From positions 1 to 23,101 of the IMG/VR virus record IMGVR_UViG_3300042154_000164: a stretch of 23,101 nt of DNA; one strand, given 5' to 3'. Made by a program: the position numbers and the translations under genes. The notes under the pieces are model-generated. The model had not been told where the DNA came from. It was given only the letters and a program-made list of their open reading frames with translations, and searched no databases. Origin of the DNA: a virus. Of this stretch, positions 875-12,551 are shown one piece after another. Every line of letters starts with the position of its first letter. Position 1 is the stretch's first letter.

Positions 875-1497
875 TGCCGAACGCGCTCGCAGATCGGTTT
901 CGTGAGGTCTATAACGCCATGATACCCGCGCCTGCGCGGATCTATGGCGAGTTCATGATGGGATCTAACGCGCCGATCACTGAGCGCGACATGACGCCGG
1001 ACATGATGGCGGAGATACGCAGGCAGTTTGAAGACAAGCGGCAGCGCGACGAAGCTGAAGCCGCGCGGCTGCGCGGTCGGCTCGACATGACCCGCGAAGA
1101 GTATGCGAAATATCCTGAAGTAGACCCAATAGCGCAACAATCCGGGTATGAAGGAATGTTGCCATATGAAAAAGCGATGGAACTGTATCGTCAGCAGTTA
1201 TCGCAATATAAACCGGGGCGCACGGCGATCAGTAAGTATGACCCGAAACACACCAACGTAGACACGGCAATGCCGCAGCCCTACGATCCGGGCTATCAGG
1301 TCGCCACGACGCTGGGCCGCTATAACGTGGTGCAAACGCCGCAAGGGCCGGTCGCGCTAGACACGTATAATTTCGACAATTTTCAGGGAAATGGGTTACT
1401 ATCGACACCGGGCCTAGTTGGCAGATTAAACGTGCTGGCTAATATGGTGCGTCCCGGCGCGTCGCGCCCTGTCAGGATCAATCTAAATGGCAAGTGA
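874..1497 (+). CDS. Unrecognised phage protein between terminase and portal (207 aa)
   Basis: The frame is open upstream to 691, but the ATG at 874 is preferred because it overlaps the preceding stop (TAATG) and the product then starts cleanly as [16 protein letters not shown]. The first half is helical and charged (residues about 40-75 rich in Arg, Glu and Lys). The second half has conserved-looking TLGRYNVVQTPQGPVALDTY, a style I associate with phage proteins of unknown role encoded near terminase and portal genes. No catalytic motif, signal peptide or membrane segment is visible. It overlaps the portal start by 11 bases, so it is probably made together with the portal. Function unknown. 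Confidence 0.75.
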   Translation: MPNALADRFREVYNAMIPAPARIYGEFMMGSNAPITERDMTPDMMAEIRRQFEDKRQRDEAEAARLRGRLDMTREEYAKYPEVDPIAQQSGYEGMLPYEKAMELYRQQLSQYKPGRTAISKYDPKHTNVDTAMPQPYDPGYQVATTLGRYNVVQTPQGPVALDTYNFDNFQGNGLLSTPGLVGRLNVLANMVRPGASRPVRINLNGK

Positions 1498-3604
1498 TGA
1501 CGTAATCGCCGCTGGCAAAGTCTCCGACAATCCAGACGATGATCGTCTGGCCACAATGCGTCACCGTTTCACGGTAGCGATGGCGGCTTACAGCGACAGC
1601 CGCGAAGACGAGCTAGACGACCTGCGCTTCATGGCCGGCTCGCCGGACAACGCGTGGCAGTGGCCGGCGGACGTGCTGGCGACACGCGGCGCGGTGCAGG
1701 GCCAGACGATCAACGCACGCCCGTGCCTGACGATCAACAAGCTGCCGCAGCATGTGCGTCTCGTGACAAACGAACAGCGCCAGAACCGCCCGACTGCGCG
1801 CGTCATCCCGGCCGACGACAACGCCGACCCAGAGGTCGCGGAAATCTTCGACGGCATCGTGCGGCACATCGAATATATGTCCGACGCCGACGTTGCCTAT
1901 GACACGGCCTGCGATAATCAGGTCACATACGGCGAAGGCTATATCCGCGTCTTGACGGAATACACGAACGAAAATTCGTTCGAGCAGGACATTCGCATCG
2001 GCCGCGTGCGTAGCAGCTTTAGCGTCTACATGGACCCGATGATTCAAGATCCGTGCGGTCAGGACGCGCGCTATTGCTTTATTACGGAAGACATTCCGAA
2101 GGCTGAATACGAAGCGATGTACCCCGACGCGACGCCTGTGACCGGCATGATGTCGCAGGGCGTGGGCGACCAGACGCTGAGCATGTGGGTCAGCCAGGAA
2201 ACGGTGCGCATCGCTGAGTATTTTTACATCGACAGCAAGCGCGAAACGCTCAACCTTTACCCCGACAATGTGACGGCGTTCTCTGGCACGCCGGAGGACA
2301 AACGCCTCAAAGCGGCCTATGGCAAGCCGATCAAGTCGCGTGAGAGCGAGCGCCGCCGCGTCATGTGGATCAAGACCAACGGTTACGAAGTGCTTGAGGA
2401 ACGCGAGTGGGCGGGCAAATACATTCCCGTCGTGCGCGTCATCGGCAACGAGTTCGAGGTCGACGGACAGATTTACATAAGTGGACTTGTGCGCAACGCA
2501 AAGGACGCGCAGCGCATGTATAACTATTGGGTCAGCCAAGAAGCGGAAATGCTCGCGCTGGCCCCGAAAGCGCCTTTCATTGGCTATGGCGGCCAGTTCG
2601 AAGGCTACGAAATGCAGTGGAAAACGGCCAATACGAACAACTGGCCGTATCTTGAGGTCAACCCGGACGTTAGCGATGGTGCTGGAAACCCTCTTCCCCT
2701 TCCTGAGCGCGCGCAGCCGCCTCTGGCCCAGACGGGACTCATTCAAGCTAAAATGGGGGCAGGGGAAGATATTAAATCGACCACGGGCCAGTACGATAGT
2801 AGCATTGGGGCGACTTCCAATGAACGGACGGGTCGTGCGATCCTCGCTCGGGAGCGGCAAGGCGACACGTCTACTTATCATTATGTCGACAACCTTGCGC
2901 GGGCGATAAAATACGTTGCGCGCCAGTTGGTCGATCTGATTCCGAAGATTTACGACACGCAGCGCGTCGCCCGCATCATCAACGTCGAGGGCGAAGTGCA
3001 GATGGCGCGCATCAATCCGGCCCAGCCGGAGGCGGTGCGAAGAATCGTCGACGAGCAGGGTATTGAGATCATGAAGATCTACAACCCGAATGTCGGCACC
3101 TATGACGTGCATGTGTCGTCTGGCCCCAGCTACATGACCCGCAAGCAGGAGGCGATGGACACGATGGGCCAGATCCTGCAAACGAACCCCGCGCTGTGGG
3201 GCGTTGCGGGCGACCTGTTCGTCAAGAACATGGATTGGCCAGGCGCGGAGACGATGGCCAAGCGGTTCGAAAAGATGCTCGACCCGAAAGTCCTCGAAAA
3301 CACCGACGATTCGCCGGAAGCGCAGATCATGCGCCAGCAGATCATGCAGATGGCGCAGGCGATGGAAGAAACCAAAGCACAGGTGCAGCAGGTTCTTCAG
3401 TCGTATGAGATGCAGAAACTCAAGATCGACGAGCAGAACGCGCAGATCAAGGCTTATGACGCCGAAACGAAGCGTCTTTCGGCCATGCAAAGCGGCCTGA
3501 CGCCGGAACAAATTCAGGATATAGTGCAGGGCACGATAGCAGCCGCGCTAGACACGGGCGATATTGTGCCGGGTGTTGCGCCAATGCAGGGGATGGGTCA
3601 ATGA
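1487..3604 (+). CDS. Portal protein, P22 gp1-like (705 aa)
   Basis: This protein forms the dodecameric ring at one vertex of the head, through which DNA enters and leaves and to which the tail attaches. The length (705) is close to P22 gp1. Typical P22-portal-like features are the N-terminal helical segment with WPADV and the RPCLTINKLPQHVR stretch (about residues 78-91), followed by NEQRQNRPTARVIPAD, and the YGEGYIRVLTEY segment near residue 150. Residues about 610-670 are a Gln/Lys/Glu-rich coiled coil, expected for the helical barrel. The start at 1487 has an AGGA about 9 bases upstream (1474-1477). It overlaps the previous gene by 11 bases and the next by four (ATGA). Confidence 0.92.
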   Translation: MASDDVIAAGKVSDNPDDDRLATMRHRFTVAMAAYSDSREDELDDLRFMAGSPDNAWQWPADVLATRGAVQGQTINARPCLTINKLPQHVRLVTNEQRQNRPTARVIPADDNADPEVAEIFDGIVRHIEYMSDADVAYDTACDNQVTYGEGYIRVLTEYTNENSFEQDIRIGRVRSSFSVYMDPMIQDPCGQDARYCFITEDIPKAEYEAMYPDATPVTGMMSQGVGDQTLSMWVSQETVRIAEYFYIDSKRETLNLYPDNVTAFSGTPEDKRLKAAYGKPIKSRESERRRVMWIKTNGYEVLEEREWAGKYIPVVRVIGNEFEVDGQIYISGLVRNAKDAQRMYNYWVSQEAEMLALAPKAPFIGYGGQFEGYEMQWKTANTNNWPYLEVNPDVSDGAGNPLPLPERAQPPLAQTGLIQAKMGAGEDIKSTTGQYDSSIGATSNERTGRAILARERQGDTSTYHYVDNLARAIKYVARQLVDLIPKIYDTQRVARIINVEGEVQMARINPAQPEAVRRIVDEQGIEIMKIYNPNVGTYDVHVSSGPSYMTRKQEAMDTMGQILQTNPALWGVAGDLFVKNMDWPGAETMAKRFEKMLDPKVLENTDDSPEAQIMRQQIMQMAQAMEETKAQVQQVLQSYEMQKLKIDEQNAQIKAYDAETKRLSAMQSGLTPEQIQDIVQGTIAAALDTGDIVPGVAPMQGMGQ

Positions 3605-5774: not shown

Positions 5775-6413
5775 ATGGCTGACGTAAAAATATCCCAACT
5801 TCCGGTAGCCACTACTCCGGTAACTGGCACGGAAGTTCTGCCGATTGTGCAGTCGGCCACAACCAAGCAGGTTTCTATCGCTAATCTGACTGCTGGCCGC
5901 GCTATCTCGGCTGACAGTCTGACGTTGACCAATCCTCTGACGCCTGCCAACGGCGGCACGGGCACTGCTACGACATTCACGTCTGGTTCGGTCGTCTTTG
6001 CTGGCACGCTTGGCGTTTATAATCAGCGCAACGCCAACTTTTTCTGGGACAACACGAATTATCGCCTTGGCATCGGCACCACGTCGCCAGGCGTCTCGCT
6101 GGCCGTTGGCGGCACGGACGCCATCAAAGTGCCGGTCGGCACGACGGCGGAACGTCCTACCGGCGCGACGGGCTACATTCGTTTCAACAGCACGAACGTC
6201 ACGTTCGAAGGCTATAACGGCACGTCATGGACTTCCGTGGGCGGCGGCGCAACAGGCGGCGGTTCTGACCAGATTTTCTATTTGAACGGCCAGACTGTGA
6301 ACAATGACTACACAGTCGCCTCGACTCTTAACGCCGGCACGTTCGGCCCTATCACTATTGCTGCCGGTAAGACCGTGACGGTCGACACGGGCGCGACTTG
6401 GTCAATAGTCTGA
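5775..6413 (+). CDS. Tail fibre / receptor-binding protein 1 (212 aa)
   Basis: The product opens KISQLPVATTPVTGTEVLPIVQ, a typical phage fibre N-terminal attachment segment, followed by NGGTGTATTF, LGIGTTSPGVSLAVGG, and the module TTAERPTGATGYIRFN...EGYNGTSWTSV (about residues 120-155) found in many fibres. It ends with GKTVTVDTGATWSIV, a usual fibre terminus, so it looks complete rather than split by the following endonuclease gene. Low-complexity Thr/Gly/Ala-rich composition is normal for trimeric fibres. Its TGA overlaps the next ATG (TGATG). It should lie outside the particle and contact the host or other fibres. Confidence 0.8.
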   Translation: MADVKISQLPVATTPVTGTEVLPIVQSATTKQVSIANLTAGRAISADSLTLTNPLTPANGGTGTATTFTSGSVVFAGTLGVYNQRNANFFWDNTNYRLGIGTTSPGVSLAVGGTDAIKVPVGTTAERPTGATGYIRFNSTNVTFEGYNGTSWTSVGGGATGGGSDQIFYLNGQTVNNDYTVASTLNAGTFGPITIAAGKTVTVDTGATWSIV

Positions 6414-6958
6414 TGGAAAAACAACTCGCAACTTTTCCTGATTACTACGTTCATTCAGACGGCTATGTAATAAGCCGCAAGAACGGTAAAAGCCGCGTTA
6501 TGAAAGGCGGCTCTACAGGTCATGGGTATCCTCAGGTAACTTTGCGGCACAACGGAAAACAAGTTCAACGATTGATTCATCGTCTTATCGCAGAGTATTT
6601 TTGCTTTCGTCCTGACGGCGCAGATCAAGTTAATCATGTAGACGGCGATAAAGCTAATAATTCCGCTGATAATCTTGAATGGGTTACGGCGAAAGAAAAT
6701 ATGGCTCACTCCGTAAAAACCGGTTTATGGACCAGCCCCACAAAAGAACACTATTGTCGAATGCGAAAAAATGCCGCCCGCAAATTGGCATTGTTTACTC
6801 TTGACGAAGGCAGTGACATTATAGAGATGAAAGATGCTCTCGGACTGTCATGCCTCGAAATGGCGAAACTTATCGGGTGCAGCAAGTCATCTATACAACG
6901 ATTGGCTAACGGCGCTATGACCCACTTTAAAGATGGGACAATTATACAATGCCTTTAA
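6413..6958 (+). CDS. Free-standing HNH homing-type endonuclease (NUMOD4 + HNH + HTH, 181 aa)
   Basis: Start at 6413 (TGATG overlap) is preferred to an in-frame TTG at 6398 inside the fibre gene. Residues about 8-47 look like a NUMOD4 DNA-binding segment (FPDYYVHSDGYVISRKNGK). The HNH_3-type core follows: IHRLIAEYF with His56, VNHVDGDKANN with Asn74-His75 and Asn82, then NLEWVT. Residues about 144-166 (LSCLEMAKLIGCSKSSIQRL) form a helix-turn-helix for site recognition. The gene is visibly more AT-rich than the early fibre genes around it, a sign of separate origin. It overlaps both neighbours and leaves them intact, so it acts as an intronless mobile gene. It is expected to nick or cut related phage DNA that lacks it. 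Confidence 0.88.
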   Translation: MEKQLATFPDYYVHSDGYVISRKNGKSRVMKGGSTGHGYPQVTLRHNGKQVQRLIHRLIAEYFCFRPDGADQVNHVDGDKANNSADNLEWVTAKENMAHSVKTGLWTSPTKEHYCRMRKNAARKLALFTLDEGSDIIEMKDALGLSCLEMAKLIGCSKSSIQRLANGAMTHFKDGTIIQCL

Positions 6959-7557
6959 CGCTTAAACCGGCTACCGGCTCTGGCCAGATGACGCTTATTA
7001 GCGTCGCTGGCACGACGACTAACGACACGCTGACGCTTCCGGCCAAAACCGGCAACATCATTACGTCTGCGGATACGGGAACAGTCACGCAGACGATGCT
7101 ATCGACGAATGTTGCGGGTAACGGACCGGGATTTTTAGCTCATAGAAACGGATCAAATCAGACTGGCATATCAAGCTCTACTGCAACAAAAGTTCAGTTA
7201 AACAATGTATCAACATATCCAGGATATAATAATGGAAGCGGGTTTGATACATCCACGAATAGATTTACGCCTCCGGTTAATGGTTATTATCATATAGTGG
7301 GTTCTGTCAGTTTGGGTGGAACAAATCTTACTTATGGTGTCTCGTTATTGTATAGAAATAACGCGCTGCTGGTCTTTGGGTCATACTCATCGGCATCGGC
7401 AGCTTTCTATGGGTCATTAGCTTCTACCATCGTATATCTAACAACATCAGATTATATTGAACTTTTTGCAAGCGGTACTACTACATCAGGAACCGTAACT
7501 GTCTTTGGTAGCTCCGTAGAAACATATCTTTCAGCCACTTTGGTGAGGGCTGCATAA
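6949..7557 (+). CDS. Tail fibre 2 with C1q-like C-terminal domain (202 aa)
   Basis: The N-terminal part (MPLTLKPATGSGQMTLISVAG, then TLPAKTGNIITSADTGTVTQ) is a standard fibre attachment region. From about residue 60 comes a C1q/TNF-like beta jelly-roll: FDTSTNRFTPPVNGYYHIVG is the hallmark segment, and the end is ATLVRAA. Such domains trimerise and often form fibre tips that bind receptors. The base composition changes inside the gene: the first ~170 bases resemble the GC-richer fibre genes while the C1q part is AT-rich, suggesting domain exchange. It overlaps the HNH gene by 10 bases and its stop overlaps the small accessory gene (TAATG). Confidence 0.82.
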   Translation: MPLTLKPATGSGQMTLISVAGTTTNDTLTLPAKTGNIITSADTGTVTQTMLSTNVAGNGPGFLAHRNGSNQTGISSSTATKVQLNNVSTYPGYNNGSGFDTSTNRFTPPVNGYYHIVGSVSLGGTNLTYGVSLLYRNNALLVFGSYSSASAAFYGSLASTIVYLTTSDYIELFASGTTTSGTVTVFGSSVETYLSATLVRAA

Positions 7558-7733
7558 TGACACTCTATGAAAAAGTGATGCAGCTATATCCTGCGCTCAC
7601 GCCACGTGATTTTATGACTGTAATCACGCTCCAAAACGACAGCGACGGACGCGGCGATTATATTGCTCGCTGGGAACATCCTGACTACCCGCGCCCGACA
7701 GACGAACAGCTAAACGCTGTGGAGGCAAAATAA
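7543..7733 (+). repeat. Diverged direct repeat, copy A (fibre end + XkdW-like gene)
   Basis: The 191 bases from GTGAGGGCTGC (the VRAA end of the fibre) to the stop of the small gene have a counterpart of the same length at 8291-8481. The first 11 bases are identical, ATGCAGCTATATCC is shared, and the RGDYIAxWEHPDYPRPTDEQ part is conserved at protein level with many synonymous changes. Confidence 0.8.
7557..7733 (+). CDS. XkdW-like small fibre-accessory protein, copy A (58 aa)
   Basis: A 58-codon frame joins its neighbours by TAATG on both sides. The product starts MTLYEKVMQLYP and ends with GRGDYIARWEHPDYPRPTDE plus a short tail. The pattern LY(D/E)K(I/V)MxxYP...DF...GxYIxxW...PT...L matches the XkdW family known from the Bacillus defective phage PBSX, as I remember it. 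Members sit next to tail or fibre genes; the role is not established. A near copy lies 748 bases downstream in the same position relative to a fibre gene, which argues for a partner or chaperone role to the fibre upstream. Confidence 0.72.
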   Translation: MTLYEKVMQLYPALTPRDFMTVITLQNDSDGRGDYIARWEHPDYPRPTDEQLNAVEAK

Positions 7734-8305
7734 TGCCGCTAACTCTTAACGGAACAACCGGCGAGATATTCCCGTCATGGACGACGGCTGGCCGTCCTTC
7801 GCCGGCTACGGCTGGGCAAACTGGCTATAACTCTACGCTTAATGTCTTAGAAACCTATAACGGCTCTGCATGGGTTCAAGCTGATCTTGGTCCAGCGTTC
7901 AGCGCGTATCAAAGTTCGGCTCAAACACCATCTTCAAGCACATGGACAAAGATGAATTTGCAAGCCGAAGAGTTTGATACGGCCAACTGTTTTGACAGCG
8001 CGACCAACTATAGGTTTACGCCTAATGTTGCTGGATACTATCAATTCAACGCGGTTGTTGCTCCTTCAGGGACAACGACCGCTTGTATCATTTCGCTATA
8101 TAAAAATGGATCGCTATTCAAATACGGTAATATTAGCGCCCCAGCGACAGTTGGGTCATTAGCTAATTTATCAACTATAGTTTATATGAACGGAACAACC
8201 GATTATGCTGAAGCATGGATTTATTTATCCGCCAGCGTTGCGCTTAATGCTATTACTCCAACGACATATAATTTCTTCCAAGGTGCATTAGTGAGGGCTG
8301 CGTAA
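7733..8305 (+). CDS. Tail fibre 3 with C1q-like C-terminal domain (190 aa)
   Basis: It starts in a TAATG overlap. The N-terminus (MPLTLNGTTGEIFPSW) and the module TAGRPSPATAGQTGYNST...ETYNGSAWVQ match phage fibre entry segments, and the latter resembles the module in the fibre at 5775-6413. From about residue 55 there is a C1q-like jelly-roll (FSAYQSSAQTPSSSTWTKM, YRFTPNVAGYYQFNAVV) ending GALVRAA, as in the fibre at 6949-7557. The C-terminal half is again AT-richer than the start. It is likely a second, alternative receptor-binding protein; its C1q sequence is only distantly similar to that of fibre 2, so specificity may differ. Confidence 0.82.
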   Translation: MPLTLNGTTGEIFPSWTTAGRPSPATAGQTGYNSTLNVLETYNGSAWVQADLGPAFSAYQSSAQTPSSSTWTKMNLQAEEFDTANCFDSATNYRFTPNVAGYYQFNAVVAPSGTTTACIISLYKNGSLFKYGNISAPATVGSLANLSTIVYMNGTTDYAEAWIYLSASVALNAITPTTYNFFQGALVRAA

Positions 8306-8481
8306 TGTCACTCTACGATAAAATCATGCAGCTATATCCATATCTTACGGAATATGACTTTGGGCCGTTTGGGTCAATTCGGCTTGAAAATGCCGGTGAC
8401 GAACGCGGCGATTATATCGCCAAGTGGGAACACCCCGATTATCCTCGTCCGACTGACGAGCAGCTTGCGGGAATTAAATAA
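8291..8481 (+). repeat. Diverged direct repeat, copy B (fibre end + XkdW-like gene)
   Basis: This is the counterpart of 7543-7733, offset by 748 bases. It covers the fibre end (GTGAGGGCTGC) and the whole XkdW-like gene. Confidence 0.8.
8305..8481 (+). CDS. XkdW-like small fibre-accessory protein, copy B (58 aa)
   Basis: A 58-codon frame with TAATG at both ends. It begins MSLYDKIMQLYPYLTEYDFG and ends ERGDYIAKWEHPDYPRPTDE plus QLAGIK. It is the same length as copy A, with 20 of 21 residues identical over the RGDYIA...DEQL segment and a two-residue gap in the middle. The LYDKIM..YP and GDYIAKW motifs are closer still to XkdW than in copy A. As it follows a fibre with a C1q-like tip in the same way, I read it as a dedicated partner of fibre 3. 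Confidence 0.72.
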   Translation: MSLYDKIMQLYPYLTEYDFGPFGSIRLENAGDERGDYIAKWEHPDYPRPTDEQLAGIK

Positions 8482-9566
8482 TGGCCGCTACACTTAAATG
8501 CGATACGATCCAGAACGCCTCCAGCGCGACCGTTAACGCCTATCTGGACGGCAACGGCAACTTGAGCGTCGGCAACTCCACGAGCCCCAGCGCAACGTCC
8601 ACTGGCAACATCAACGCCAGCGGCACCGTCATAATGGGTTCTAGCTTCCTGCGGAATCGGCTGATTAACGGAGATATGGGCGTCTATCAGCGCGGGTCTA
8701 TAGCGGCGACGACTTCCGGCGCATACACGTTGGATCGTTGGTTTGTGACGCCAACGGGCGCGACTGTCACGGTTACGCAAAGCACGACGACGGTTCCTAC
8801 TGGCTTTGCTGACAGCCTTAACGTAGCTGGCGCGGCAAGCGTCACCAACGTGTCTGTCCGTCAGCGTATCGAAAGCGTCAACACGCAGGACTTGGCAAGC
8901 GGCGTTATCGTAACGGTGTCCGGTCGCATCTATCAAAGCACCGGATCGGCTGTCACGACTGCGACGATTGCGCTGGCTGCGCCGACTGCGCTGGACAACT
9001 ACACGTCAACCACATCGGCTGCGACGACATACACGCTGCCCAGCATTCCGAATGCAACGTGGACGACGTTTAGCAACACGTTCACGCTGACGACAAGCTG
9101 CGTCAATGGCTTACAGGTGACGATTGCGCTTGGCACTGGCCTGACGACTGGTTCGTTTAACATCACCGGCGTCCAGCTAGAAGTAGGCTCAGTCGCCACG
9201 CCGTTCGAGCGTAGGCAGTATGGCACTGAGTTGGCGCTGTGTCAGAGGTATTATTGGAAGTCTTTTCCGCAAGGCACGGCTCCGGCTCAAAATGCTGGAG
9301 CTGACGGGGCTATAGCCGTTTCTACATCGGCTACCTCAACATTCGCTACGTCTGTAACTTTTCCGGTTTTAATGCGCGCAACTCCGGGGACTATTACGAC
9401 CTACAATCCTTCGGCAGCAAATGCTAATTGGCGGGACACAAATAATTCCGCCGACAGAACGCTCAATTCCGCAACCGCCGTTGATTCGCAGGTATATCTC
9501 GTCGGCCTAGCGGGTATCGTAAACGGCATCAATCGTATTCATGTCACGGCTTCAGCGGAGTTATAA
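8481..9566 (+). CDS. Tail fibre 4 with carbohydrate-binding-like module (361 aa)
   Basis: TAATG start. The N-terminus MAATLKCDTIQNASSATVNAYL is a common fibre entry segment. At about residues 56-88, FLRNRLINGDMGVYQRG and YTLDRW open a beta-sandwich module that resembles carbohydrate-binding modules in many phage fibres. It closes near residues 228-259 with GVQLEVGSVATPFERR and ELALCQRYYW. The last ~100 residues form a separate tip (FPVLMRATPGTITTYNPSAANANW). The DNA of the tip is AT-richer than the central part. It is expected to bind cell-surface sugar. The next gene encodes an assembly-type protein two bases further on. Confidence 0.85.
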   Translation: MAATLKCDTIQNASSATVNAYLDGNGNLSVGNSTSPSATSTGNINASGTVIMGSSFLRNRLINGDMGVYQRGSIAATTSGAYTLDRWFVTPTGATVTVTQSTTTVPTGFADSLNVAGAASVTNVSVRQRIESVNTQDLASGVIVTVSGRIYQSTGSAVTTATIALAAPTALDNYTSTTSAATTYTLPSIPNATWTTFSNTFTLTTSCVNGLQVTIALGTGLTTGSFNITGVQLEVGSVATPFERRQYGTELALCQRYYWKSFPQGTAPAQNAGADGAIAVSTSATSTFATSVTFPVLMRATPGTITTYNPSAANANWRDTNNSADRTLNSATAVDSQVYLVGLAGIVNGINRIHVTASAEL

Positions 9567-9568
9567 TT

Positions 9569-9955
9569 ATGATTGTTTATAGGCTGAATGCTGATGGACT
9601 ATATGCCGAAAAATACATTGACGACATTAGCACGGGTGAATGGTCTGATACGACGACTAATCAAGAATATCTTGATTGGGTAAACGAAGGAAATACGCCT
9701 TTACCTTACATCAATCCCATCCCGCAGTCTGCCCCCATGTGGGCCGTTCGCACGGTGTTGCAGAACGATGGCCTGTTCGATCAGGCGCAGGCGCTTATCA
9801 ATGAGACGAGCGACAACGCGCTGAAGAACGTCTGGGAATACGGCAACTTTGCCGACCGGAACTCTCGGGCGATTAGCGTGCTTGCTATAGAACTCGGCCT
9901 GACCGAAGCGCAGGTCGATCAAATGTTCATTGACGCTAATAATCTTAGCGTCTAA
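9569..9955 (+). CDS. Tail-fibre assembly-like accessory protein (128 aa)
   Basis: The first half (MIVYRLNADGLYAEKYID, then QEYLDWVNEGNTPLPYI) has the look of tail-fibre assembly proteins, where a Q-x-YL-x-W-x-x-x-GN-x-P segment is frequent. The second half (MWAVRTVLQNDGLFDQAQAL, EYGNFADRNSRAISVLA, LGLTEAQVDQMFIDA) is a helical domain common in small phage proteins downstream of fibre genes. The N-terminal half is AT-rich like the preceding fibre tip, the C-terminal half GC-rich, so the gene looks mosaic. I infer a chaperone or partner of fibre 4. Confidence 0.75.
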   Translation: MIVYRLNADGLYAEKYIDDISTGEWSDTTTNQEYLDWVNEGNTPLPYINPIPQSAPMWAVRTVLQNDGLFDQAQALINETSDNALKNVWEYGNFADRNSRAISVLAIELGLTEAQVDQMFIDANNLSV

Positions 9956-10806: not shown

Positions 10807-10817
10807 AACTCGAAAAT
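10792..10817 (+). promoter_or_regulatory. Palindrome upstream of HNH gene (operator or hairpin)
   Basis: TCGAGT-ATGATA-ACTCGA (10796-10813) is a perfect 6-bp inverted repeat with a 6-base centre. Beyond one mismatch (10795/10814) it extends by ATT/AAT, giving 9 of 10 paired bases per arm. It overlaps the putative -10 box, so it may be an operator; as RNA it could be a hairpin just before the ribosome site. No T-run follows. Confidence 0.45.
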
Positions 10818-10827
10818 GGAGGCAGAA

Positions 10828-11334
10828 ATGGAGAGTGAAAATCAAACTGCTGATGAACTAAAGCGGCAACGCAATAGAGAAGCGGCAGCGCGATACCGCG
10901 AACGAAACCGGGAGAAGGTCAATCTGCGTATGCGTGATTGGCGCGAAAATAACCGAGAGCAAGATCGGTTACATAAGCGTGAATGGCGCAACCGAAAGTT
11001 GGCGAATGGAACGCCTGAAGAGGTAGCCGCAATACGGCAGGCTGAACGGGACAAAACCAATCGCAATAACGCTCGGTGTAGGGAAGAAGTATTTGCTGCT
11101 TATGGCGGTTATACTTGCAACTGCTGCGGAGAGACTGAACCTCTGTTTTTAACGATTGACCATGTAGATAACGACGGGGCTAAAATGCGTAGAGAGGGCG
11201 TTCACGGAAATGGATCAGCTTTCTATACTTGGCTCCGAAAAAACGGGTTCCCTAGCGGGTTCCAAGTTCTCTGCATGAACTGTCAACTCGGTAAGCACAG
11301 AAACGGCGGAATTTGCCCTCACCATTCTTCCTAA
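10828..11334 (+). CDS. Free-standing zinc-type HNH endonuclease (168 aa)
   Basis: Two starts are possible, 10816 and 10828; the second is chosen because GGAGG (10818-10822) lies 5 bases before it. The N-terminal ~85 residues are a very basic, Arg/Asn/Glu-rich helical arm (RYRERNREKVNLRMRDWREN), probably DNA-contacting. The C-terminal half is an HNH fold with zinc ligands: Cys97 and Cys100, the catalytic-type IDHVDNDG (Asp111-His112), FYTWLRKNGFPSGFQVLCMN, then Cys149, Cys152 and a GKHRNGGICPHH end. Such genes sit next to capsid genes in many phages as homing endonucleases. It separates scaffold and coat, both intact, so no intron or intein is needed. Codon and base use is more AT-rich than coat. 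Confidence 0.87.
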   Translation: MESENQTADELKRQRNREAAARYRERNREKVNLRMRDWRENNREQDRLHKREWRNRKLANGTPEEVAAIRQAERDKTNRNNARCREEVFAAYGGYTCNCCGETEPLFLTIDHVDNDGAKMRREGVHGNGSAFYTWLRKNGFPSGFQVLCMNCQLGKHRNGGICPHHSS

Positions 11335-11354: not shown

Positions 11355-12551
11355 ATGAGTAATTCTCTTCTTACGATCGACATGATCACAAGGAAGGCTT
11401 TAGAAATCCTTGAAAACAACCTTGTCCTGACCCGCACCGTCAACCGTCAGTATGACGACTCTTTCGCCGTCGAAGGCGCTAAGATCGGCTCGACCCTGCG
11501 CATCCGTCTGCCCGACCGCGCTCTGGTTACGGACGGCGCTGCCCTTCAGGTGCAGGACGACAACGAGCAGTACACGACCCTGACCGTTTCGTCGCAGAAG
11601 CACATCGGCGTGAACTTCACGACCGCCGAACTGACGATGCAGTTGGACGACTTTGCGGAACGTGTGCTGAAGCCGCGTATTTCGCAGCTTGCGTCTTCCA
11701 TCGACGCCGACGTTGCGAACTCGTTCAAATACATCGGCAACTCGGTCGGCACGCCCGGCACGACCCCGGCCACCTCGCTCGTTCTGTTGCAGGCGCAGCA
11801 GAAGCTGAATGAGAACGCCGCTGTCATGTCGCCGCGCTACGCGACGGTCAACCCGGCCGCCAACGCGTCTCTGATCGAAGGCATGAAGGGTCTGTTCAAC
11901 CCTGTTTCGGCTATCTCGAAGCAGTTTAAGAACGGCATTTTTGGCGAAGGCATTCTCGGCTACGACGAACTGAATATGTCGCAGTCGATTAAGCAGTTCA
12001 CGACGGGCTCGCGCACGGGCACGGTCACGGTCAGTTCGTCGGTTACGACCGAAGGCTCGACCACCATCGTTCTGACGGGCCTCGGCTCCACGACGATCAA
12101 GGCCGGTGACGTGTTCACCATCGCCAACGTCTACGCCGTCAACCCGCAGACCCGTGAGTCGACTGGCTCGCTGTTCCAGTTCGTTGCTCTGGCTGACGTT
12201 ACGGCGTCGACCACGGCTTCGGTCACTGTCGCCGCGATGTATTCGGCCACGCAGGCTCTGGCCACGGTCGACGCGCTGCCGGTCGCTTCTGCGGCTGTCA
12301 CGTTCCTCGGCGCTGCCTCGACGCAGTATCCGCAGAACCTGATCTACCACAAGGACGCCATCGCGTTCGCCACCGCCGACCTTCTGCTCCCGCAGGGCGT
12401 CGACATGGCTTCGCGCCAGGTCCACAACGGTATCTCGCTCCGTGTTGTCCGTCAGTATGACATCAACAACGACCGACTGCCCTGCCGTATTGACGTTCTG
12501 TATGGCTACAGCGTCATTCGTCCGCAGATGGCGGTTCGCCTTTGGGGCTAA
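11355..12551 (+). CDS. Major capsid (coat) protein, P22 gp5-like (398 aa)
   Basis: The length is close to P22 gp5 (430). The start MSNSLLTIDMITRKALEILE, the SFAVEGAKIGSTLRIRLPDR segment, FTTAELTMQLDDFAERVLKP and the end NDRLPCRIDVLYGYSVIRPQ follow the P22 coat family pattern. A Thr/Ser/Val-rich stretch at about residues 220-320 corresponds to the inserted domain of P22 coat (HK97 fold plus extra domain). This is the shell protein, made in the largest amount; codons are the most uniform of the window, consistent with high expression. The ribosome site AAGG lies 8 bases before the start, and a strong hairpin follows the stop. Confidence 0.93.
   Translation: MSNSLLTIDMITRKALEILENNLVLTRTVNRQYDDSFAVEGAKIGSTLRIRLPDRALVTDGAALQVQDDNEQYTTLTVSSQKHIGVNFTTAELTMQLDDFAERVLKPRISQLASSIDADVANSFKYIGNSVGTPGTTPATSLVLLQAQQKLNENAAVMSPRYATVNPAANASLIEGMKGLFNPVSAISKQFKNGIFGEGILGYDELNMSQSIKQFTTGSRTGTVTVSSSVTTEGSTTIVLTGLGSTTIKAGDVFTIANVYAVNPQTRESTGSLFQFVALADVTASTTASVTVAAMYSATQALATVDALPVASAAVTFLGAASTQYPQNLIYHKDAIAFATADLLLPQGVDMASRQVHNGISLRVVRQYDINNDRLPCRIDVLYGYSVIRPQMAVRLWG

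Follow-up and report, generated by a model that had tools for sequence, protein, structure and literature searches.

XkdW-family proteins, whose genes lie directly behind phage fibre genes, are paired with fibres that end in a C1q-type tip, and this pairing holds both in the virus studied here and in distant phages. We consider it reasonably probable that stem, C1q/TNF-like tip and XkdW make up a portable receptor-binding cassette, in which XkdW is an assembly chaperone or cap specific to this class of tip. In such a cassette, a stem of variable type would carry a presumably trimeric tip that touches the host surface. XkdW, translated from an overlapping stop and start, would help the tip to fold, to trimerise or to stay capped until assembly, and would be matched to the tip class (C1q) rather than to the individual tip. 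Both cassettes and tips pass from phage to phage through recombination, with crossovers in the conserved core of XkdW and in further conserved segments, and in this way two units with unlike tips have ended up in tandem.

To our knowledge, the XkdW family has no agreed function; the structure of the PBSX protein (PDB code 2hg7) was solved in 2006. In the phages with short XkdWs, the protein is a stand-alone domain of 53-58 residues, comprising two helices, a beta hairpin and a helix. In other phages, this domain makes up the N-terminus of a longer protein (100-145 residues), whose C-domain is helical or shared. In PBSX, xkdW has been grouped with the tail genes (PMC6834076).

Results

Two fibre–XkdW units within one fibre block

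The window, i.e., the entire 23,101-nt stretch of viral DNA analysed here, contains a fibre block between the portal gene (1487-3604) and the coat gene (11355-12551), as judged from the list of open reading frames (ORFs) and the sequence. The block comprises, in this order, fib0, an HNH endonuclease, fibre 1 with XkdW1, fibre 2 with XkdW2, and fibre 3 with a 128-residue partner (Table 1). Fib0 is probably not truncated, since its end, GATWSIV, resembles that of fib0 in the related contig L102. The first-pass annotation had described two tandem units of the same plan, and the ORFs and the sequence confirm it: both fibres end in LVRAA, each junction is a one-base TAATG overlap, and the XkdW starts are offset by 748 nt. 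The third fibre and its small partner, which follow the two units, had been missed.

Table 1 Features of the fibre block, in window positions
Feature	Position	Strand	Evidence or remark
fib0, fibre/stem gene opening the block	5775..6413	+	phrog search and comparison with L102
HNH endonuclease, free-standing, between fib0 and fibre 1	6398..6958	+	Pfam HNH_3 2.2e-10
Fibre 1, 202 aa: stem ~1-60 (LTLPAKTGN type) and C1q-like tip ~61-202	6949..7557	+	
GTGAGGGCTGCATAA, fibre 1 end: last tip strand (VRAA) and SD-like GTGAGGG for XkdW1	7543..7557	+	
XkdW1, 58 aa	7557..7733	+	Pfam PF09636 1.3e-10; model pLDDT 86; best PDB match 2hg7
Fibre 2, 190 aa: stem 1-52 (type unlike fibre 1) and C1q-like tip 53-190	7733..8305	+	AlphaFold2 model
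GTGAGGGCTGCGTAA, fibre 2 end: corresponding dual-use end ahead of XkdW2	8291..8305	+	
XkdW2, 58 aa, shared unchanged with contig L167	8305..8481	+	Pfam PF09636 2e-5
Fibre 3, other tip class (QRYY motif, ends SAEL)	8481..9566	+	phrog_4492 tail fibre 6.5e-44
Fibre 3 small partner, 128 aa, EYLxWVNEGNTP type	9569..9955	+	parallel fibre-plus-partner pair

The two small proteins are nearly identical at their core, with one residue differing in RGDYIA(R/K)WEHPDYPRPTDEQ, and share 64% identity over 58 columns (E 1.6e-27). The tips are strongly diverged, with 37% identity over 134 columns (E 1.5e-16). With such E values, the likeness of the units is far beyond chance. Both small proteins also pass the gathering cut-off of Pfam XkdW (PF09636; 24.6 bits), XkdW1 with 41.3 bits and XkdW2 barely, with 24.7 bits. 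The model of XkdW1 shows a helix-helix-hairpin-helix arrangement, and its top Foldseek match is PBSX XkdW (TM 0.58, probability 0.98), which is also retrieved with a VIA Z of 4.5 (2.8 Å over 52 residues; the first unrelated structure below it has Z 2.2) and by the XkdW profile (E 2.8e-5). Coronavirus nucleocapsid proteins in the same Foldseek list were rejected as low-TM chance matches.

The assignment of the tips to the C1q class is based on the fold and not on the Pfam C1q profile (PF00386), which matches 13 of 60 relatives at E 0.01 and whose cut-off of 23.7 bits is missed by both fibres (17.3 and 14.0 bits). A fibre profile matched C1q-like proteins of the PDB (E 2.5e-5). In the AlphaFold2 model of fibre 2, a confident jelly roll, mostly with pLDDT >90, extends from residue 53 to the end, and its best PDB match is the gC1q domain of C1QL1 (Foldseek E 1e-9, TMt 0.86). 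Fibres 1 and 2, on the other hand, have N-terminal stems that are barely related (E 0.003), which the first-pass annotation had not noticed; the stem of fibre 2 instead matches residues 109-152 of fib0 (E 3e-8).

A second HNH endonuclease gene is found at 10816-11334, between scaffold and coat, with homologues at the same place in contigs L088, L113, L151 and L164 and none in the other relatives. The sister contig L167 has no HNH gene at the place matching that of the first one (window 6398-6958). Across all phages examined, an HNH or GIY-YIG ORF directly adjoins 10 of 140 C1q–XkdW units, as if homing genes favoured the fibre block.

XkdW genes follow C1q-type tips across phages

The association of XkdW with fibres extends well beyond the window and is specific for C1q-type tips. 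Sufficient sequence was available upstream of 140 non-redundant viral XkdW genes, and in all 140 the ORF directly upstream is 100 residues or longer and ends in a C1q-type tip, with a one-base overlap in 106 of them; the loci were chosen by XkdW similarity, so common descent is possible. When profiles were made from the upstream ORF ends of half of the set, every member of the other half was recovered; the C1q identity of this tip family comes from the fold and from the PDB profile match. Far relatives agree, namely Bacillus PBP180, Paenibacillus Unity, pelagiphages, MEP401 and a phage from a spring metagenome (tip-profile E 5e-10 to 3e-52), and the pairing is thereby also found in phages of Bacillus, Paenibacillus, Pelagibacter and Methylophilales. 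PBSX itself is represented only by the related PBP180, and in Unity the C1q domain lies C-terminally in an endopeptidase tail protein. Two exceptions were observed, the XkdWs of SPbeta (YorD) and HTVC115P, neither of which has a C1q tip immediately before it. In HTVC010P (L245:3109-3932), the C1q-tip gene before XkdW is apparently split, in the genome as deposited, into ORFs of 216 and 45 aa, by a sequencing error, a frameshift or a real break.

Searching from the tip side, we found that the gene following a C1q tip is XkdW in 65 of 82 cases, another C1q tip in 4 and something else in 13. Some of the 17 tips without an adjacent XkdW have no XkdW at all in the available flanking DNA. The first-pass annotation had proposed to look for one, two or more units in related genomes. 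Units do occur elsewhere, but among the 29 coat-protein relatives with a full portal-to-coat interval, only L102 has a C1q tip with an XkdW, as one unit. The only C1q-tipped relative is thus also the only one with XkdW, and the presence of XkdW goes with the tip rather than with the lineage of the phage. A scan of cellular genomes yielded short XkdWs in only 2 MAG contigs. Some loci (L217:5432-6644, L081:1952-3643 and L205:4569-6001) have a run of fibre genes of the C1q or LMEIA type with a single XkdW in it, so that several fibres may share one XkdW.

Tips that are 89-96% identical can carry XkdWs that are only 72-75% identical, which indicates that the match is to the tip class and that the fit to the individual tip is loose. 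Tip and XkdW identities are correlated (Mantel r 0.40), and the correlation is stronger for the N-terminal half of XkdW, the half nearest to the tip (partial r 0.36 vs 0.13), although linkage alone could give the same result.

The fibre end and the translation of XkdW

The DNA encoding the fibre end, GTGAGGGCTGC(A/G)TAATG, contains a GAGG resembling a Shine-Dalgarno (SD) sequence. The arginine codon of LVRAA is AGG in 110 of the 122 tips linked to XkdW, whereas elsewhere in the same genes AGG encodes 42 of 370 arginines (Fisher p 1e-59, computed over related genes as if independent). Among tips without XkdW, AGG is present in 10 of 10 when the next start lies at -4 to +1. When the gap is wider and the arginine is kept (n=5), the codons are AGA, CGT, CGT, CGA and CGT, never AGG, and the R-x-A motif is still present. 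Since AGG tracks the distance to the next start, this codon serves the translation of whatever follows, and the arginine residue itself would be kept either for the fold or by inheritance. Much of the conservation of LVRAA reflects an SD constraint, the fibre end being in part a ribosome-binding site. In pelagiphages, XkdW starts at least 11 bases downstream and the tips end without RAA. An SD sequence inside the fibre end would couple the expression of fibre and XkdW.

In the AlphaFold2 model of fibre 2, the last C1q strand runs to residue 189 of 190, so that FxGxLV and R-A are predicted to belong to this strand. The small protein had been proposed to be either a fibre-specific chaperone or a conserved docking piece. 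The former, tied to the tip class, is the best reading of the data; LVRAA, being under an SD constraint, is poor evidence for a docking site. We have mostly abandoned LVRAA as a docking peptide for XkdW, because the AGG bias explains much of its conservation and R-x-A persists in tips that lack XkdW.

Small partners are matched to tip classes

Pelagiphage XkdWs carry a C-domain of the QLDMQYWDKVNGTTNWEDAI type, which is also present in cyanophage and other proteins with different N-domains. Among proteins with this common C-domain, those with an XkdW N-domain are behind a C1q tip in 7 of 8 cases and those with other N-domains in 0 of 9 (Fisher p 4e-4, which overstates independence, as numbers are small and the phages are partly related). 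The MYKL-type N-domain is found behind a fibre ending in QAEL, the NP-x-V-x-I type behind fibres with ends like LMEIA, and another type adjoins glycine-rich adhesins. The shared C-domain had no match in Pfam and nothing convincing in comparisons with the PDB or with Mu U. In marine phages, this common C-domain (QLDMQYWDKVNGTT-W type) is fused to at least four kinds of N-domain (L246:3944-4264, L334:2827-3204, L338:2363-2638 and L339:2306-2710), each of which adjoins a different fibre class.

Fibre 3 of the window and its 128-residue partner belong to the SAEx/MYKL-type kind. In the fetched IMG/VR contigs, an MYKL-type protein, as defined by a strict motif, comes next after 38 of 71 fibres ending in SAEx, and many of the remaining listed fibres are followed by a similar small ORF. 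Homology between XkdW and the MYKL partner was not supported (hhalign probability 0.4 percent). We tentatively propose, as a possibility that we would not yet favour, that XkdW is one of several mutually unrelated small 'tip readers', which would form a combinatorial chaperone code and let phages swap tip and partner together. The pairs would be XkdW with C1q, the MYKL/WLAEGNTP type with SAEL ends, the NP-x-V-x-I type with LMEIA ends, and a fourth type with glycine-rich tips, some of the readers being stand-alone and others fused to the common C-domain.

Discussion

The role of XkdW

The match between modular N-domains and tip classes counts in favour of a chaperone, as it follows the logic of Pam3, with an N-domain that binds the fibre and a conserved C-domain (PMC9608196). 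The generality of the pairing, seen from the XkdW side and from the tip side, its independence of phage lineage and the coupling of expression point in the same direction. Point mutants of XkdW in phage Sam46 have an altered plaque type and unaltered adsorption (PMC8190038), which fits a role in assembly. Like the genes of fibre chaperones, XkdW is adjacent to, and matched with, its putative client fibre, and PHROG 8746, a 'tail fiber assembly protein', weakly matches 11 of 55 XkdWs (best E 3.6e-4). Several observations count against it: the C1q tips without an adjacent XkdW, the separations in SPbeta and HTVC115P, the looseness of the fit to individual tips, the size of XkdW, which at 58 residues is without the trimerising domain of known Tfa chaperones, and the lack of a sequence relation to Mu Tfa. 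The likeness to chaperones would therefore be one of function and not of membership in the Tfa family.

The main rival is that XkdW is a permanent part of the virion, a docking or capping piece that would remain on C1q fibres, perhaps at the base of the tip, and would link them into the tail or protect them. The genetics of the pairing fit this role too, there is usually one XkdW copy per fibre gene, and the literature treats xkdV-xkdW-xkdX of PBSX as genes for structural tail proteins (PMC6834076). We nevertheless find it unlikely, as Pam3 gp25, which of the cases studied is the closest one to have a TNF-like client, is not part of virions (PMC9608196), the Sam46 mutants adsorb normally (PMC8190038), and C1q fibres without XkdW exist.

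It is more doubtful still that XkdW acts elsewhere, on lysis timing or a host factor, and hitch-hikes in the variable fibre block, its conserved DNA being a recombination handle. A recombination boundary inside XkdW (see below), the effect of the Sam46 mutations on plaque type and lysis with adsorption unchanged (PMC8190038), and the higher tip correlation of the tip-proximal half of XkdW, as expected from linkage, could all be explained in this way. In contrast, linkage alone would not be expected to match N-domains to tip classes at a shared C-domain, or to keep the pairing across phages of Gram-positive and Gram-negative hosts and across tail types, with SPbeta and HTVC115P as the only separations seen.

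Origin of the tandem units

The L167 contig differs from the window by a single mismatch over 7671-8998 (1.3 kb), a stretch that begins in XkdW1, takes in fibre 2 and XkdW2 and ends within fibre 3. This match starts inside the WEHPDYPRPTDEQ codons of XkdW1, which places a recombination boundary at ~7670. The first tip of L167 is unrelated to that of fibre 1, and the portal and scaffold flanks are ~86% identical. The tip of fibre 3 differs between the two contigs beyond ~9250, having been exchanged after the LALCQRYY motif. The GC content is 0.39-0.42 in the tips, 0.53-0.57 in the stems and 0.58-0.60 in portal and coat; within fibre 1, it is 0.39 in the tip vs 0.57 in the stem. XkdW1 is 86% identical to the XkdW of contig L003, where a single unit is followed by a fibre 3 homologue, and ~65% identical to XkdW2. 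Fourteen other loci have two units, and in no case do the two XkdWs of a locus pair up as closest relatives. Tips thus move by recombination, and the L167 comparison, the 14 loci, the GC content and the 29 relatives together indicate that the unit travels as a cassette with crossovers in conserved parts, including XkdW.

The first-pass annotation had explained the tandem by local duplication in this lineage followed by diversification of the tip, which we regard as very improbable: the unit order is the same, the XkdWs are 64% identical and the tips are homologous, but the stems are of different types, the tips are AT-rich, XkdW1 is closer to XkdWs of other contigs, and a recent local duplication is rejected on the basis of the 14 two-unit loci and of L167, in which unit 2 is the same but unit 1 has been replaced. 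It is plausible that the virion displays two receptor-binding proteins; no invertase or other switching element came to notice in the fibre block.

Significance of the pairing

The pairing with C1q tips makes the function of XkdW a directly testable claim. If XkdW is a chaperone, its short forms would be of a size far below that of Pam3 gp25 (162 residues) and Mu U (175 residues), and would be useful for making soluble phage adhesins. The conserved XkdW DNA at the edge of the tip, as a homologous crossover point, also explains how tips are swapped. In the open-access literature, we found no paper linking XkdW to C1q tips. This link appears to be new, as do the double use of the fibre end, the crossover within XkdW and the matching of partners to tip classes; the type of module, a fibre and a partner that are exchanged together, is already known.

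Comparison with known systems

The small proteins of the window belong with the XkdW family (PBSX XkdW and SPbeta YorD), having a profile score above the curated cut-off and the same small fold, and in the PBSX-like PBP180, XkdW is also behind a gene with a C1q-type end. They differ in length, the short form having 53-58 residues against 104-145, and in having no C-terminal coiled coil or C-domain; the short form also occurs once or twice per locus, always together with a short C1q fibre of its own.

The chaperone gp25 of Pam3 (162 residues) holds the TNF-like domain of the fibre through an N-domain of ~55 residues and is absent from virions (PMC9608196). As in the window, the Pam3 fibre gene is followed by that of a small partner (gp24/gp25, PDB code 7YPX), and the client is TNF-like, i.e., of the C1q superfamily; the N-domain of the chaperone is variable and its C-domain conserved (PMC9608196). 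However, gp25 has a beta-sandwich N-domain that is related to Mu Tfa, whereas XkdW is predicted to be alpha-alpha-beta-beta-alpha; no homology was found, and the XkdWs of the window have no C-domain. The possibility that XkdW is a stand-alone Tfa N-domain found no support in sequence (hhalign) or in predicted secondary structure. XkdW showed no sequence relation to Mu U (hhalign probability 0.1), the small proteins of the window had no Tfa-type Pfam match at E 1, and neither Tfa nor the gp25 N-domain is among the Foldseek matches listed for the XkdW1 model.

Phage Mu, with S/U and S'/U' (Tfa), likewise has two fibre variants per genome, each of them next to a small partner of its own; in the window, unlike in Mu, both units have the same orientation within one gene row. 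Metaviromic islands of marine phages, as reported in 2014, already contained both kinds of gene among the most frequent identifiable ones, C1q-like proteins with 10 genes and XkdW, labelled 'unknown', with 4 (PMC3909814). In the accessible portion of that report the two are not paired, whereas here they are adjacent and class-matched. In the host-recognition modules of Alteromonas phages A5 and V22, a fibre and its cognate chaperone are reported to be common to distantly related phages, the fibre and chaperone families being different from those described here (PMC10579305).
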